From the NCBI GenBank assembly GCA_943736015.1, contig OX031060.1, positions 4,546,001-4,610,000 of the forward strand: a stretch of DNA of 64,000 nucleotides, given 5' to 3'. Below the pieces are notes generated by a model. The model was not told where the DNA came from. It ran no database searches and saw only the letters and a program-made list of their open reading frames with translations. Numbering within the stretch: position 1 is the stretch's first letter; each line of letters opens with the position of its first letter. A program made the translations under genes and the position numbers. Source of the DNA: Tridacna crocea. Its lineage: Eukaryota > Mollusca > Bivalvia > Cardiida > Cardiidae. Positions 23,561 through 64,000 of the stretch are shown here, piece after piece.

Positions 23561-23662
23561 GCCTTTTAGCTCCTTTCAAACAAAATATACCTCTGCGTCC
23601 AGCGTAGATGAAGATCAGGCTGCACAAAACGTGCAGCCTGATCTTTGATCTACACTGTCCGC
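23557..23662. mobile_element. Family B 5' part with palindrome
   Basis: Starts at the TTAA ending the previous element. The palindrome at 23599-23662 has AGATCAGGCTGCAC and GTGCAGCCTGATCT, a mirrored change from the usual AGACT/AGTCT. Confidence 0.7.
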
Positions 23663-25708: not shown

Positions 25709-25840
25709 CCCTTTCCCAAACAAGCCCTTGTTTTTACCTGTCTGCAGTACAAGTCTTTTGAAAACACAGTGGGAAAAGGAGAAATTGCTCGTAACGAGCA
25801 ATTTCTCCTTTTCCCACAGTGTTTTCTACTCATTTGGGGG
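25705..25840. mobile_element. Family A MITE, third of the train, truncated
   Basis: TTAACCCTTTCCCAAACAAG, then a hairpin whose inner arms are AATTGCTCGT and ACGAGCAATT instead of AATGCTGGT and ACCAGCATT. Both arms changed together. The right part is lost after 25840. Confidence 0.85.
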
Positions 25841-29622: not shown

Positions 29623-29820
29623 ATAACCCTTTACCACATAATTCCTTGTTTCTTGAAGAAAAAATCATTTGAAAACAATATGGGAAAACGAGAAAATGCT
29701 GGTAACCAGCATTTTCTCGTTTTCCTACATTGTTTTCTACCCTTTTTAACCCATTCTTAGATTTTTAGTCTCATTTAAATTTGAGTCTGCAAATCCTTTC
29801 AATTTGGAAAAGTGTACAAG
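29623..29820. mobile_element. Family A MITE
   Basis: ATAACCCTTTACCACATAAT at left; the right end is eroded. The hairpin carries AAAACGAG and CTCGTTTT, a mirrored substitution relative to AAAAGGAG/CTCCTTTT. Confidence 0.8.
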
Positions 29821-32538: not shown

Positions 32539-34762
32539 TCCGTGAAGTTGGCTCAGCGTTCAGTAACCGACATTCAGCTCAACACCAATCTTGTTGAGCC
32601 AGCTCGAAATTCCAGCTTAACAGTAAGCTCAACAGCAAACTTACTAGATCCATGTCCTTTGAGCCAGCTCGACATTCCTGCTCAACCGCCAGCTCAACAG
32701 TAAAAAGACTTATCCATATGTTTCGTTCACTGTCCCCTGAGCCAGCTCGACATTCCAGCTCAGACACCAGCTCAACAGAGAAAATACATTTATATGTCAA
32801 AATCAAAGTCCTTTGAGCCAGCTCGACATTCCACCTCAACCATCAGTTCAAGAGCAAAATTATATATAAATATGTCAAAATCAAAGTCCGTTCAGCCAGC
32901 TCGACGTTCCAGCTCAACAGCTAGCCCAACAGTAAAAGTACTTATACATATGTTTCGATCAATGTCCACTGAGCCAGCTCGACATTCCAACTCAACAGCA
33001 AAAAATGCATATATATGTCAAAATCAAAGTCCATGGAGCCAGCTCGACGTTCCAGCTCGACCGCCAGCTCAACAGTAAAAATACTTATAAATTTGTTTCA
33101 ATTAATGTCCGTAGAGCCAGCTCGACATTCCAGCTCAACGGCCAGCTCAACAATATATTTTTACTGTTGAGTTGGCTGTTTAGCTGTAATGTAGAAGGAC
33201 ATTGATTGAAACATATGTATAAGTATTTTTACTGTTGAGCTGGCGGTTAAGCTGGAATGTCGAGCTGGCTCAACGGACTTTGATTTTGACACATATATCT
33301 ATTTTTGCTGTTAAGCTGGCTGTTGGACTGGAAAGTCGTGCTGGCTCACCGGACATTGATCGAAACATATGTACAAGTATTTTTATTGTTGAGCTGGTTG
33401 TTGAGCTGGAATGTCGAGCTGTCTAAACGGACATTGATCGAAACATATGTACAAATATTTTAACTGTTGAGCTGGTGGTTGAGGTGGAATGTCGAGCTGG
33501 CTAAACTGGCATTGATCAAAACATATGTATTTAGTATTTTTGCTGTTGAGCTGGCGGTTGAGCTGGAATGTCGAGCTGTCTCAACGGACTTTGAATTTGA
33601 CAAATATCTATTTTTGCTGTTGAGCTGGAATGTCGAGCTGGCTCAAGAAACTTTGATTTTTACATATATAATATGTATTTTTATTGTTGAGCTGGAGGTT
33701 GAGCTGGAATGTCGAGCTGGCTCAACAGACATTGACCGAAATATATGTATAAGTACATGTATTTTTATTGTTGAGCATGCTGTTGAGCTGGAATGTCGAG
33801 CTGGCTTAACAAACTTTAATTTCTACATATATAATATGTATTTTTGTTGTTTAGCTGGCCGTTGAGCTGGAATGTCGAGTGGAATCAACGGACATTGATC
33901 GAAACATATGTATAAGTATTTTTAGTGTTGAGGTAGCGTTTCAGCTGGAATGTCGAGCTGGCTCAAAGGACTTTGATTTTGACATATATATGTCTTTTTG
34001 CTGTTAAGCTGGTTGTTGAGCTGGAATGTCGAGCTGGCTGAACTGACATTGATCGAAATATATGTATAAGAATTATCAATGTTGAGCTGGCTGTTGAGCT
34101 GGAATGTCGAGCGGAATCAACGGACATTGATCGAAACATGTGTATAAGTATTTTTACTGTTGAACTGGCGGTTGAGCTGGAATGTCGACCTGACTCAACG
34201 AGACATTGATCGAAACATATGTATAAATATTTTTATTGTTGAACTGGCGGTTGAGCTGGATTGTCGAGCTTGCTCAACGGACATTGATCGAAACACTTTT
34301 ATAAGTATTTTTACTGTTGAGCTGGTGGTTGAGCTGGAATATCAAGCTAGCTCAACCGACATGGATCTAGTATTTTTGTGTTGAGCTGGCCGTTGAGCTG
34401 GAATGTCGAGGTGGCTCAACGGACGTTGATCGACGCATATGTATAGGTGTTTTTACTGTTGAGCTGGCTGTTGAGCTAGAATGTCGAGCTGGCCCAAAGG
34501 ACTTTGATTTTGACATATATGTATATGTATTTTTGCTGTTGTACTGGAATGTCGAGCAGGCTCGACGGACACTGATTGAAACATGCATATAAATATTTTT
34601 ACTGTTGAGCTGGCGGTTCAGCTGGAATGTCGAGCTGGTTCAACGGACATGGATCTAGTATTTTGCTGTTGAGCTGGCCGTTGAGCTGGAATGTCGAGCT
34701 GGCTCAAAAAGGCTGGTGTTAAGCTGAATGTAGATTACTGAGCGTTGAGCCAACTTCACGGA
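32539..34762. mobile_element. 2.2 kb inverted minisatellite element with 49 bp terminal inverted repeats
   Basis: The ends 32539-32587 and 34714-34762 are inverted repeats with about 5 mismatches in 49 (outer part TCCGTGAAGTTGGCTCA). Between them are units of 70-80 bp: about eight in one orientation (GAGCCAGCTCGACATTCCAG, to about 33150), then about twenty in the other (CTGGAATGTCGAGCTGGCTC). Two linker types tend to alternate: one with GAAACATATGTATAAGTAT and TTACTG, one with TTTTGACATATATAT and TTGCTG. Many units have lengths divisible by 3, so long meaningless frames appear on both strands. No transposase is present. The unit recurs at 61907-62375. Confidence 0.9.
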
Positions 34763-38839: not shown

Positions 38840-38914
38840 TATGAAGACAATTGTGACAAAAGAAGAAATTGCTCTGACAGCAATTTCTCCTTTTTTCACA
38901 ATGTCTTCATATAG
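38840..38914. repeat. Family A-like hairpin with altered arms
   Basis: ATATGAAGACAATTGTGACA at left is mirrored by CACAATGTCTTCATAT at right. The GAAGAC/GTCTTC pair differs from the family consensus GAAAAC/GTTTTC on both arms. Confidence 0.75.
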
Positions 38915-44616: not shown

Positions 44617-44838
44617 TTAAACAGTGTACCAAATACAAAGTTTTAGACTATTCAAAATCGAATGCATTTATACACGACAAATTGAATGGATAATAAAATT
44701 TTTGTTAGAAAGGACAGAAAACAATCTGGGAAAATGAGAAAATGCTGCACAGCAGCATTTTCTCATTTTCCCAGATTGTTTTCTAAAGCCTACTTTCTCG
44801 TGGTCATTAAAACTTGGAATTGTTAGGCAAAGGGTTAA
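44617..44838. mobile_element. Family A MITE with rewritten but perfect palindrome
   Basis: TTAAACAGTGTACCAAATAC to GGCAAAGGGTTAA. The palindrome 44716-44784 has perfect 33-base arms around ACA. It differs from consensus at matched positions on both arms (CAATCTGGG/CCCAGATTG for CATTGTGGG/CCCACAATG; AATGAG/CTCATT for AAGGAG/CTCCTT). Confidence 0.9.
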
Positions 44839-52571: not shown

Positions 52572-52638
52572 GCAAAAAGTTTCGACTCATGTCAGCCTGC
52601 GCTGACTGCGCAGGCTGACATGAGTCGAAACCTTTTGT
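52572..52638. repeat. Family F palindrome with mirrored arm changes
   Basis: GCAAAAAGTTTCGACTCATG and mirror CATGAGTCGAAACCTTTTGT. CTCATG/CATGAG replaces the CCCAGG/CCTGGG of other copies on both arms. Confidence 0.85.
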
Positions 52639-53831: not shown

Positions 53832-54063
53832 CATATAACTCATTACAAAACGACATTTTTTTTGGCTTGTCCAAATCGAAAGCATTTGCAGACGACAAAA
53901 TAAAAGTAACTGAAAATTTGAAATTTGTTTCGTGAAGGGTAGAAAACATTGTGGGAAAAGGAGAAAATGCTGGTTACCAGCATTTTCTCCTTTTCCCACA
54001 ATGTTTTCTAAAGGGGTCTTTCTCAGGGTCGTTAAAAGTAGGGATTGTGTGGTAATGGGTTAA
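53832..54063. mobile_element. Family A MITE with a perfect 67 bp palindrome
   Basis: CTCATTACAAAACGAC to GTGTGGTAATGGGTTAA. The palindrome 53942-54008 is identical base for base to 26398-26464. Confidence 0.9.
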
Positions 54064-55425: not shown

Positions 55426-55615
55426 TTAACCCTTTACCAAACGACTTAACTGTGGACTTGTCCAGATTGAAGGCACTTGCAGACAACAAAATAAATGAGA
55501 CTCAAAAATTGAGATTTAGTTTGGGAAGGATAGAAAACATTGTGGGAAAGGGAGAAAATGCTAGTTACTAGCATTTTTTCCTTTTCCCGCAATGTTTTCA
55601 AAAGGCTTTTATTTC
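55426..55615. mobile_element. Family A MITE, right end truncated
   Basis: TTAACCCTTTACCAAACGAC at left. The palindrome centre is AATGCTAGTTACTAGCATT, a mirrored G-to-A/C-to-T change. The right end dissolves into T-rich sequence. Confidence 0.85.
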
Positions 55616-55901: not shown

Positions 55902-56008
55902 TACAGAAAATATCATTGAAGCGAAAAGTGTCAAACCCTGGTCAGCCTGCGCGAATTGCGCAGGCTGACCAGGGTTTGACACTTTTCGCTTCAATGATAT
56001 TTTCTGTA
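55902..56008. repeat. Family F: perfect 107 bp palindrome
   Basis: Two 51-base arms around GAATT read without a mismatch. They begin TACAGAAAATATCATTGAAG, include GCGAAAAGTGTCAAACCC, and reach CAGCCTGCGC at the centre. The outer 18 or so bases are not seen in other family F copies, so this palindrome is longer than the family core. Confidence 0.92.
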
Positions 56009-57077: not shown

Positions 57078-57305
57078 ATTACCCTTTACTCCATAGATAC
57101 TCATTTCTACGCATTGCTTTTAGGAGCATTTGGGAAACATTGTGGCAAAAGGTGAAATTGCTCGTGACGAGCAATTTCACCTTTTGCCACAATGTTTTCT
57201 ACATTATCAAAAAGTGTCAAATACACATAAGAAACGGCTTCATCCTTGCTGTTATTTACGGTCAATTAGAGATACCATAGAAATGCCCTATGGGTTAAGG
57301 GTTAA
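57078..57305. mobile_element. Family C MITE, complete
   Basis: ACCCTTTACTCCATAGATAC to TATGGGTTAAGGGTTAA. The palindrome centre GAAATTGCTCGTGACGAGCA and outer ACATTGTGGCAAAAGGTG resemble family A, so A and C are sister families. Confidence 0.85.
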
Positions 57306-60455: not shown

Positions 60456-61092
60456 TTGCAGTATAACAAATATTCTTTTTCCACGGAGGGGCTGGGGTTT
60501 GCTAATGTTTGTTTGATTTATTATTTTCACCTTTTAACCTCTTCTAGCATTTCAAAATATTAGCAGACTATATCATTTGCACGTATAATTTGTAACTGGG
60601 GAAAAAGTCGTTAACAGGCCTACTGCTATCATTGAGAAATAATTACAAAGTCAAATTCAGCTCATCGGCTAAACAGTTTGTTATTTGCTTTAATGTTCCG
60701 TAAGTAATTGCAGTGAAAACATAATGTTTTATACACTAAGGCTGATCAACGAAACCAATTAACAAATACATCGTTTTTGTCTATCTTTTCGTCAAGGACA
60801 TTTTATTAGAACGACGTAAAAGCAGGACCTGAATGCAAGTCTATAAATGACTAAAAAGTATTTGGCTTGAAGAAAATATACCGCAGATCATAGGGGCTAT
60901 TACTGTGGGTCAAATCGTCTCCCTTGCTGGAGAAAGACTAAAGATATCTAAATAACAGATTGGTTCTTATACTTGTATTCCTTTGTCTTTGTCTTTGATT
61001 TCTTTGGGGATGATTCGATAAATTCAATTTGATTTATGATTTATGATTATTTGTAAGGACTACCTCACAACTTGTACTCTGCTCTAAATTCT
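60456..61092. other. Spacer, nothing recognised
   Basis: AT-rich with no supported gene or named repeat. Confidence 0.5.
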
Positions 61093-61320
61093 TAACCCAT
61101 TACCACACGAGAAAAATTTAGACTGGTCCAAATTGAAAGCATTTGCAGATGACAAAATAAATGTGACTGAAAAATTGAAATTTGTTCTGGCAAGGGTAGA
61201 AAACACCGTGGGAAAAGGAGAAAATGCTGGTTACCAGCATTTTCTCCTTTTCCCACAGGGTTTTCAAAAGGCTTCTTTCTCAGGGGCGTCAAAAGTAGGG
61301 ATTGTATGGTAATGGGTTAA
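61093..61320. mobile_element. Family A MITE, complete
   Basis: TTAACCCATTACCACACGAG to GTATGGTAATGGGTTAA, intact palindrome core. Confidence 0.9.
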
Positions 61321-61906: not shown

Positions 61907-62375
61907 TCAACCGCCAGCTCAACAGTAAAATACTTATACATATGTTTCAATCAATGTCCGATGAGCCAGCTCGACATTCCAGCTCAACCACCAGCTCAAC
62001 AGCAAAAATATATATACTTTATATGTCAAAATTAACGTTCGACATTCCACCTTAACCGCAAGCTCAAGAGGGAAAATACTTACACACGTTTCGATCAATA
62101 TCCGTTGAGCAAGCTCGACAATCCAGCTCAACCACCAGCTCAACGGCAAAGAAAACATATACCTGTCAAAATAAAAATTCTGTTGAGCCAGCTCGACATT
62201 CCTTAAGATACTTATACCTATGTTTCGATCAATGTCCGTTGAGCCAGCTCGACATTCCAGCTCAACCACCAGCTCAACAGCAAAAATATATATGTCAAAA
62301 TCAAAGTCCGTTGAGCCAGCTCGACATTCCAGCTCAACTGCTAGCTCAACAGTAAAACTATTTATACATATGTTT
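61907..62375. repeat. Second copy of the alternating minisatellite, truncated by the LINE
   Basis: About six units in the GAGCCAGCTCGACATTCCAG orientation, with the same two linker types as 32539-34762 (CTTATACATATGTTTC and ATATATATGTCAAAAT). The array stops where LINE 3' sequence begins, so the rest may continue beyond the LINE outside the window. Confidence 0.88.
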
Positions 62376-64000
62376 AAGTTTAAACATATTTTATTGTATA
62401 TATAAACATACAAATGGATTGGGACGAAAGCTGATAAGAGCTTATAGAGTCCCTTTCCAAAGCAACAACATCCACATGACAGAAATAAAGAAAATGAGAA
62501 AAAGAAAAAAAACAAACATATACATACAAAAATTGGTGAGCAAGCTGGAGAAAGAGAGACAAAAAGAGAGAAAGAGAGACAGAGAGAGGTAGAGGTGGAC
62601 CTTTTTGAAAATCATTCGTTAAAACGCTTACTTTCCCTTATATACGACTGAACTTTCAAAAAGATTTCTTCATTTTCCTGAAAAGTAAGAAAATCATTTC
62701 CAAAGAGGAGTGTTTGAAGGTCTATAGTAATTTCATAGTACGATATGGAGCGAATGAACTTATTTCTTATAGTTTCATAAAGTGGACATTCAAAGAAATA
62801 GTGTGCATTTGTCTCTATAGCACCACATACACAGTTAGGAGAGTCAACTACATTTCTTAAGTACAGATGGTGCTTTAGGGAACTGCAATTATTTCGTAAC
62901 CTAGTATGCAAAATTTGAAGGCGTCTTTGTCCTATAAAAAACAATTTATTTGGATATGGCCTATTGTTGTCCAGATACCTTTTGAAACAAGGCAAGGAAT
63001 TCAAATTCCTAATATCTTGAGGAATTGAGTTCCATTCTTCCACAACGGATGGAAGAAAGGATTTTTTATAGAGATTTGTCCTACAAGCAATGGTTCGAAT
63101 ATTATTAGAATTGCGCAAGTTGTAATTGTTAAGGTTGCTATTCAGATCAGGGACAAGATTACTCAGGTAGGAAGGAACAAGGCTTTTAGTCATTTTAAAG
63201 AACAATACAAGTTTGTGTTTACGCCTGCGGTCGCCAAGTGACTCCCAACCACATTCATTTTTTAGTTCATCCAAGGAAACCAGTTTGCTACAACCTGTTA
63301 CTATTCTGGCAGCTTCATTTTGGATTTTGTCTAGATCATTTTTCAGGTATTGAGGGATATTGTCCCAAACGACGTCTCCGTATTCTATTATAGGTCTAAT
63401 GAACGTAAAATATATAACTTGCAAAGATTTCCTATCAAGACATATCTTAAGACGACGCATTATATTTATCCTTTTCCATGCTTTCTCAATAGAATTTTTA
63501 ATATGAAGATCCCATGATCCGTCGTTTGAGAAGTGAAAACCTAAATGTTTATGTGACTGGACATTTTCAATATTTATATTTGACATACAGAGATCGGGGT
63601 GAGAATTTTGAGCATTTTTACGTGTGATGATAAGTGATTCAGATTTTGAAGGATTAAATTTAACCAGCCAGGTTTCTGCCCATTTATTAATTTTTTCTAT
63701 ATCTCTCTGAAGAATTCGTCCCGCATCGTTTGGGTTACGGATAATTAATGATAGACTAGTGTCGTCTGCAAATAGGTTGATACCCGATTCTATGTTTTCG
63801 ACAATATCGTTAATAAATACCAGAAAAAGAAGCGGGCCGAGTATCGATCCTTGTGGGACACCAGCATTTATGTATTGGGCATTAGACTGGCCACCACGCA
63901 GGATAACTTTTTGACGCCTGTTAGAGAGGTAATTAGAAAGCCAATCAAGTAGTTTACCATTTATTCCTGCGCGTCTTAGTTTGAATATCAGACCCTTATG
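62376..64000 (-). mobile_element. LINE (jockey/CR1-like), 3' part
   Basis: Coding end plus about 235 bp of 3' untranslated sequence with AATAAA (minus strand, 62391-62396) and a short A/T tail that meets the minisatellite near 62376. The 5' part lies beyond the window, so target duplication cannot be tested. Confidence 0.88.
62612..64000 (-). CDS. LINE reverse transcriptase, C-terminal part (partial)
   Basis: The frame is open from the window edge to a stop at 62612 (462 codons plus stop); the ATG at 63586 is internal, since the 138 codons before it translate into RT sequence. Visible: the RT motif VPQGSILGPLLF about 50 residues in, then FADD (the YxDD catalytic box variant) about 40 further on, then the thumb region NPSKSE and HLGFHF. 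After this comes the usual non-LTR connector with RPIIEYGDVVW and a late Cys/His group (CVCG, HYFFECPLY) that may bind zinc or nucleic acid. The enzyme copies element RNA at a nicked target. No frameshift or stop, so the copy is recent. No RNase H domain is seen after the RT part. Clade assignment is by resemblance only. Confidence 0.92.
   Translation of the reverse strand, partial: HKGLIFKLRRAGINGKLLDWLSNYLSNRRQKVILRGGQSNAQYINAGVPQGSILGPLLFLVFINDIVENIESGINLFADDTSLSLIIRNPNDAGRILQRDIEKINKWAETWLVKFNPSKSESLIITRKNAQNSHPDLCMSNINIENVQSHKHLGFHFSNDGSWDLHIKNSIEKAWKRINIMRRLKICLDRKSLQVIYFTFIRPIIEYGDVVWDNIPQYLKNDLDKIQNEAARIVTGCSKLVSLDELKNECGWESLGDRRRKHKLVLFFKMTKSLVPSYLSNLVPDLNSNLNNYNLRNSNNIRTIACRTNLYKKSFLPSVVEEWNSIPQDIRNLNSLPCFKRYLDNNRPYPNKLFFIGQRRLQILHTRLRNNCSSLKHHLYLRNVVDSPNCVCGAIETNAHYFFECPLYETIRNKFIRSISYYEITIDLQTLLFGNDFLTFQENEEIFLKVQSYIRESKRFNE

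Follow-up and report, generated by a model that had tools for sequence, protein, structure and literature searches.

The hairpin at positions 44716 to 44784 of the window (the whole 64-kb stretch of DNA that was analysed, with a G+C content of 37%) raises the question of how the two arms of a short palindrome can come to carry the same changes. The first-pass annotation held that copies of a hairpin-bearing MITE, family A, differ at positions that change on both arms, wherein each copy stays self-complementary. The hairpin itself is exact. Its left arm (44716..44748, + strand) and right arm (44752..44784, + strand) are each 33 bp long and pair without mismatch around the loop ACA (44749..44751). 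When base pairs are numbered as a distance (d) outward starting at the loop, the left arm departs from the consensus by d26 T>A, d24 G>C, d15 G>T, and d2 G>C, and all four changes are mirrored on the right arm. The fourth, at the apex (GCTGC/GCAGC), had been missed. This hairpin sits in an A1-like TTAA element of family A (44617..44838, + strand; GGCAAAGGGTTAA) whose 5′ end is decayed and whose 3′ end is clear. The element has TTAA copies at 44617-44620 and 44835-44838, matches the family profile over 44627-44836, and has flanks that diverge by 0.22 from the consensus.

Family A is best described as a piggyBac-like TTAA element, non-autonomous and very abundant, with a central hairpin. Profile searches place the palindrome, with its 33-bp arms, at the centre of an element of ~227 bp with the layout TTAACYCTTTACCAAACGAC...hairpin...GGTAAAGGGTTAA. 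As judged from the element ends, TTAA flanks 48 of 51 5′ ends and 45 of 51 3′ ends, and no strong consensus lies beyond this tetranucleotide. The short terminal inverted repeats start with a pyrimidine after TTAA (consensus TTAACYCTTTACC...GGTAAAGGGTT(AA)), and the consensus termini read CYC...GGG. A stand-alone 70-bp palindromic MITE was considered and rejected, in that none of the 223 hairpin matches in the first 282 kb lies outside profile matches to the element or its relatives. Matches cover 19.7% of random DNA (47,370 of 240,000 bases), as sampled from known ranges of 13 contigs rather than from the whole of the 1.05-Gb, 31-contig assembly, and a reversed control in the same coverage search gave no matches; for a single MITE group this share is large. 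Within the window, family A occupies 9.3 kb. Tandem arrays of the hairpin occur at L003 429-8946, L054 1658-2049, and C8:35638701-35639059, with spacings of ~1,673, 110-180, and 151 bp.

Several related lineages can be distinguished. Well preserved A1 copies in the window include a reference copy with C at d26 (61092..61318, + strand; TTAACCCATTACC...GGTAATGGGTTAA) and one with a perfect consensus hairpin (53836..54061, + strand). A3 is homologous to A1 and has diverged from it. A4 is a second family, which has the hairpin in common with A1 and similar outermost ends, and whose flanks do not cluster with those of A1 on the left or the right side (13 copies; a similarity or pattern match brought in the loci of two). 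Among 170 copies from all loci, the A4 consensus is set apart by four mirrored differences, at d3, d8, d13, and d20, all of which are present in an A4-type hairpin at 57135..57197 (- strand), whose TTAA element differs in its flanks. A3 is marked by d3, d8, and d26, and d26 also marks a 12-copy clade of A1. The d26 pair (element columns 115/167) occurs in the states T-A, C-G, and A-T; with 25 mirrored and 24 one-arm changes it has the highest mirrored count of any pair, and its mirrored forms are found in the 12-copy clade as well as in scattered copies. These d26 counts, and part of the basis for the subfamily assignments, come from 179 hairpin-covering copies, including those of L002, which was added by similarity.

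Every motif that had been named as mirrored is present in the sequence; two of the spans given were off by up to 11 bases, with the real hairpins at 25760..25826 and 29671..29737. The former (- strand) is an A3-type hairpin with mirrored d3 G>C, d8 A>T, and d26 T>C and one unpaired change, and the latter (- strand) combines mirrored d15 G>C and d26 T>A with two unpaired changes. A mirrored d3 G>A (GCTAGT/ACTAGC) in the hairpin at 55533..55599 (+ strand) is accompanied by three. The hairpin at 38843..38908 has 24-bp arms spanning 38850-38902, outside of which lies the mirrored GAAGAC/GTCTTC, with arm and motif offset by one base on the left side; it has two unpaired changes. One unpaired difference is present in the family F hairpin with CTCATG/CATGAG (52573..52637). 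The earlier description omitted the unpaired differences in all five hairpins. The ATG part of the mirrored family F motif recurs in L013 (~4850) and L021 (~216), and the AGGCT/AGCCT pair of family B, which forms without unpaired differences at 23611..23645, was found there only, in one of 15 pattern-matched family B hairpins; for both families the basis is a listing of hairpins in the fetched DNA. A perfect palindrome with 51-bp arms at 55902-56008 is related to family F.

To compare paired and unpaired changes, we tabulated only copies from the window and random loci, of which 193 are distinct (10 of 203 were dropped as identical rows), encompassing 6,295 arm pairs. Changes confined to one arm number 853 (426 left-only and 427 right-only), and two-sided changes comprise 131 mirrored and 61 non-mirrored cases. 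Because one-arm changes outnumber mirrored changes 853 to 131, it is not the rule that each copy stays self-complementary, and we rejected mirrored change as the rule. Judged by the refuting conditions that the annotation had set for itself, the general claim fails on this count, and also in that most mirrored differences (85 of 131) fall at the five subfamily-marking pairs d3, d8, d13, d20, and d26. This concentration, along with the fixed mirrored sets of A3 and A4 and the predominance of single changes, speaks for a reading in which a source element acquired each mirrored change a single time, whether by two ordinary mutations or by one rare event, and passed it on by simple copying, with resident copies never correcting their arms. 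Against it, the pairs outside these five still hold 46 mirrored changes where 31.1 are expected, together with 718 single and 46 other changes.

Mirrored changes nevertheless exceed chance. When right arms were shuffled within divergence bins (5,000 rounds; 171 copies from the window and random loci), 118 mirrored changes were observed against 53.6 ± 6.9 over all pairs, a count reached in none of the rounds, and 41 against 29.6 ± 4.7 outside the five pairs, reached in 61 of the 5,000. Among the 123 least diverged copies, again from the window and random loci only, the pairs outside the five carry 220 single, nine mirrored (in six copies), and six other changes, where 2.15 mirrored changes are expected.

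Parsimony on a flank-only tree (147 columns; 172 copies, with the window and random loci contributing 142) yields 614 single-arm events, 63 of them on internal branches, as well as 53 mirrored events (seven internal; 14 of the 53 at d26) and 24 others. With only 147 columns the flank tree is weak, and some of the internal events may therefore be parallel mutations. When arms were simulated independently on the flank tree, 10.7 mirrored changes (sd 15.6) arose versus 91 observed, with seven of 500 runs reaching 91, and 11 of 500 runs of the same design reached the observed count outside the five pairs. The tail of this simulation is heavy and it produces somewhat too many single changes (685 versus 601 observed), so we count it as weak support.

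One-arm changes are also inherited. In A4, d21 G>A is present on the left arm of six of 13 copies and on the right arm of one (counts from the 170 copies of all loci), and A4 copies compared with their own consensus show 31 single changes, one mirrored change, and no others. A cluster of three A1 copies has one mirrored and three one-arm changes in common. We therefore rejected a strict rule that only mirrored changes are inherited, given that small clusters share one-arm changes and that internal branches carry 63 single versus seven mirrored events. For the same reason, the proposal that one arm is regenerated from the other at every transposition is unsupported.

We next asked where constraint acts, using copies from the window and random loci only. 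Private changes per site are about as frequent in the arms as in the flanks: 0.0160 in the flank, 0.0158 in the outer arm, and 0.0128 in the inner arm of 56 young copies; 0.021, 0.018, and 0.0215 in the same order for 35 mid-aged copies; and 0.044, 0.0525, and 0.040 for 22 old copies. Changes found in at least three of the young copies behave differently, with rates of 0.101 in the flank, 0.030 in the outer arm, and 0.008 in the inner arm, so that changes which are shared, and presumably inherited, occur 3-13 times less often in arms than in flanks. Shared variation is thus depressed in the arms and private variation is not. If private changes mostly arose after insertion and shared changes were mostly inherited, a reading made on a sampling that is shallow relative to copy number, then the hairpin would be protected in the spreading lineages while resident copies decay freely. 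The earlier proposal of selection for the folded structure finds a place here in reduced form, in that the hairpin varies little in spreading lineages, as selection on either structure or sequence would give.

Two other explanations bear on this pattern. Breaks at extruded hairpins might be repaired from another copy, by which whole hairpins would move between unrelated flanks. Indeed, in 59 young copies from the window and random loci, variability rises symmetrically from ~0.02 at the apex to ~0.1 at the bases of the arms, mirrored variants do sit in unrelated flanks, and a three-change hairpin (mirrored d26C plus one single change) is common to two copies 0.27 apart. However, the A4 hairpin is present in 13 of 13 copies of the A4 flank cluster, and three of four changed hairpins common to two sampled copies belong to close relatives (0.01, 0.07, and 0.08 apart). 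Private changes are nearly as frequent in arms as in flanks, and therefore resident hairpins are not often overwritten; we consider such ectopic gene conversion unlikely as the main cause. The second explanation is selection on pairing alone, wherein source elements need a folded hairpin, a compensating second mutation is favored, and no arm-to-arm correction takes place. It agrees with the low shared variation in arms, with the mirrored differences between families, and with the occurrence of one hairpin in otherwise different TTAA families, but it leaves unexplained the mirrored changes in scattered, non-founder copies and sits poorly with the inheritance of one-arm changes, which makes it a distinctly unlikely sole cause.

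Scattered copies were covered by exact genome-wide counts of 57-base hairpins that are otherwise perfect and carry one of two variants, d15 G>T or d24 G>C. The d15 variant is mirrored in 21 hairpins (three of which lie in one 151-bp array) and confined to the left arm in 242, and the d24 variant is mirrored in eight and left-arm only in 135. Among changed left arms, the mirrored share is thus 8.0% for d15T and 5.6% for d24C, where chance would give ~0.3-0.5%. With ~44,850 consensus hairpins, a number extrapolated from 13 in 304 kb (95% interval 23,900-76,700), and with right-only counts assumed equal to left-only counts, independence predicts ~1.3 mirrored d15T and ~0.4 mirrored d24C hairpins. 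Over the interval of the extrapolated number, the observed counts exceed expectation by ~8-28 times and ~10-34 times, respectively, and even at its lowest value the Poisson probabilities are 2e-11 for d15T (with the array collapsed) and 1.5e-6 for d24C. The double change at positions that are not partners, d15T on the left arm and d24C on the right, was found nowhere in the genome against ~0.7 expected, a zero that is weak because less than one copy is expected. The 23-base d15T arm gave no mirrored pair among the first 100 of its 3,617 places, and the arm with both 26A and 24T gave four among the first 100 of 352.

The relatedness of the mirrored copies was judged by their flanks. For d15T, 19 of 20 mirrored hairpins were compared, one per locus and with one tandem duplicate dropped; their mean flank distance is 0.230, versus 0.227 ± 0.017 in random samples of the same size, and their nearest-neighbor flank distance is 0.137 versus 0.138. 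Six of the eight mirrored d24C copies (two have too little flank) lie 0.333 apart, versus 0.227 ± 0.039. With flanks at least as varied as in randomly drawn copies, the mirrored d15T and d24C copies do not look like a subfamily. Copies no closer by flank than random ones argue against subfamily inheritance as the whole explanation, which we judge improbable. Rare arm-to-arm correction fits the residual mirrored excess best; as a cause it seems to exist, as the excess of d15T and d24C indicates, though at a low frequency that falls short of the role first assigned to it. Inversion of the loop was considered as a further sign of correction and set aside: it is found in four of 19 mirrored versus one of 44 near-consensus copies, but also in three of 20 left-only d15T copies, and is thus not enriched with correction.

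The hairpin at 44716 can be viewed in this light. With flanks 22% diverged, ~4.3 unpaired pairs are expected, and one was found, next to the loop, alongside the four mirrored changes. A 20-mer over three of these changes has four exact matches in the genome, of which two are the arms of this hairpin and the others each lie on one arm at two other places; that the 20-mer is present on both arms nowhere else again counts against inheritance of a ready-made mirrored set. Related copies, chosen by similarity, carry d26A and d24C on one or both arms in varied combinations. Because unpaired pairs are few and no other hairpin has the 20-mer on both arms, this copy is best read as one arm rewritten by the other in a single event, in which several sites were probably converted together. 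A conservative null gives its pattern P = 0.0012, which is no longer significant once all 193 copies are corrected for.

Taken as a whole, the data favor three layers, to which we assign a probability of about 0.64: free decay after insertion, retention of the hairpin in spreading lineages, and rare rewriting of arms. After insertion, arms and flanks would mutate at similar rates and arms would lose their pairing, as they do in the sample. In spreading lineages, the hairpin would remain far less variable than the flanks, which is the pattern seen; the presumed cause is selection, acting either on the hairpin or on some factor bound to it. This second layer would not be strict: the fixed differences of A3 and A4 are mirrored, yet inherited one-arm changes occur, including within A1, where clusters share them, and single events prevail on internal branches. 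Finally, in a few copies (for the two variants counted in otherwise perfect hairpins, ~6-8% of changed left arms, with both the excess and the unrelatedness of the copies seen in the counts above), one arm would be rewritten from the other, such that a one-arm mutation becomes mirrored. The likely route, as the biology of inverted repeats suggests, would be a template switch across the palindrome during replication or, with the same outcome, mismatch repair acting on the extruded hairpin.

The correction process itself is already known. Template switching between short inverted-repeat arms in yeast homogenises the arms and inverts the spacer (PMC8604942), and template switching with arm homogenisation has been proposed for RNA hairpins (PMC8794818). 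As in quasipalindrome systems (PMC8604942; PMC8794818; PMC3820800), one arm here would turn into an exact reverse complement of its partner, several sites may change at once, and the event recurs independently in short inverted repeats. Unlike in those systems, the substrate here is the dispersed copies of one transposon family, the mirrored share can be estimated, inverted loops show no enrichment, and the route is a proposed one. On a much larger scale, the arms of sex-chromosome palindromes are inverted repeats, and gene conversion between them was reportedly described by Rozen in 2003. Such arms are kept alike by conversion (PMC7023750). The arms here are 33 bp long, the repeats that hold them are dispersed, and correction is a rare event instead of the dominant one. 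In the open-licence literature that was searched, we found no case in which the rate of such correction had been estimated over a large MITE family.

By extrapolation, the genome holds tens of thousands of nearly identical hairpins with independent flanks. They amount to a natural assay of inverted-repeat correction, which needs no mutant strains and can show, for each site, how large a fraction of arm mutations is copied onto the opposite arm. The assay separates constraint while an element spreads from repair of the hairpin after it lands, two effects that are easily confused. A more speculative extension, doubtful at present, is that the hairpin is a cassette common to otherwise different TTAA MITE families and a selected unit that evolves through mirrored jumps instead of one mutation at a time; the palindrome would then be kept in spreading lineages because correction gives two-sided changes in one step.

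Family A resembles known piggyBac-like MITEs in being short, non-coding, and TTAA-flanked with ends of the form CYC...GGG, in a genome that holds piggyBac transposases. It differs in its central 67-71-bp palindrome, common to families of otherwise different sequence, and in that a cognate autonomous element was not found among four intact loci examined. Kolobok elements share the TTAA target duplication (PMC9587614) but do not fit in their termini; that source gives these as 5′-RR and YY-3′, and the family A consensus has CYC...GGG after TTAA.

The arms could instead be the transposase-binding subterminal repeats of an autonomous piggyBac, joined by internal deletion and co-evolving, with pairing incidental. 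Palindromic internal repeats bound by transposase are described in piggyBac ends (PMC7351741), the genome holds 118 PF13843 matches (26 nearly full length and without stops), and two of four examined loci have matched ends of the TTAACCCT type. However, split arms are present in the ends of none of the four, and the hairpins nearby are whole and lie outside the ends at both matched-end loci, whose ends agree with A1 for seven and four bases after TTAA and then differ. Of the intact loci, which number at least 26, four were examined for shared ends and arms and none has the arms; we regard this origin as very unlikely. As piggyBac ends hold transposase-bound palindromic repeats (PMC7351741), a role of the palindrome in binding is a fair guess and no more. 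At one of the two matched-end loci, the presence of A1-type ends on both outer sides suggests that a piggyBac transposase element landed inside an A1 copy.

Some groups of piggyBac matches have equal scores and open frames, for example one at C18:30428954, C3:66851558, and C4:69349889 and another at C3:59405428, C5:7868714, C9:10144221, and C10:12637330, which suggests recently active families. The - strand of the window contains a 1,611-aa open frame, and further long frames are present in the window and in L011; some of these look reverse-transcriptase-like, from motifs judged by eye in the translation. A diverged tandem repeat with a unit of ~78 bp and the core GCCAGCTCGACATTCCAGCTCAAC occupies 32624-34707 and 61926-62432.
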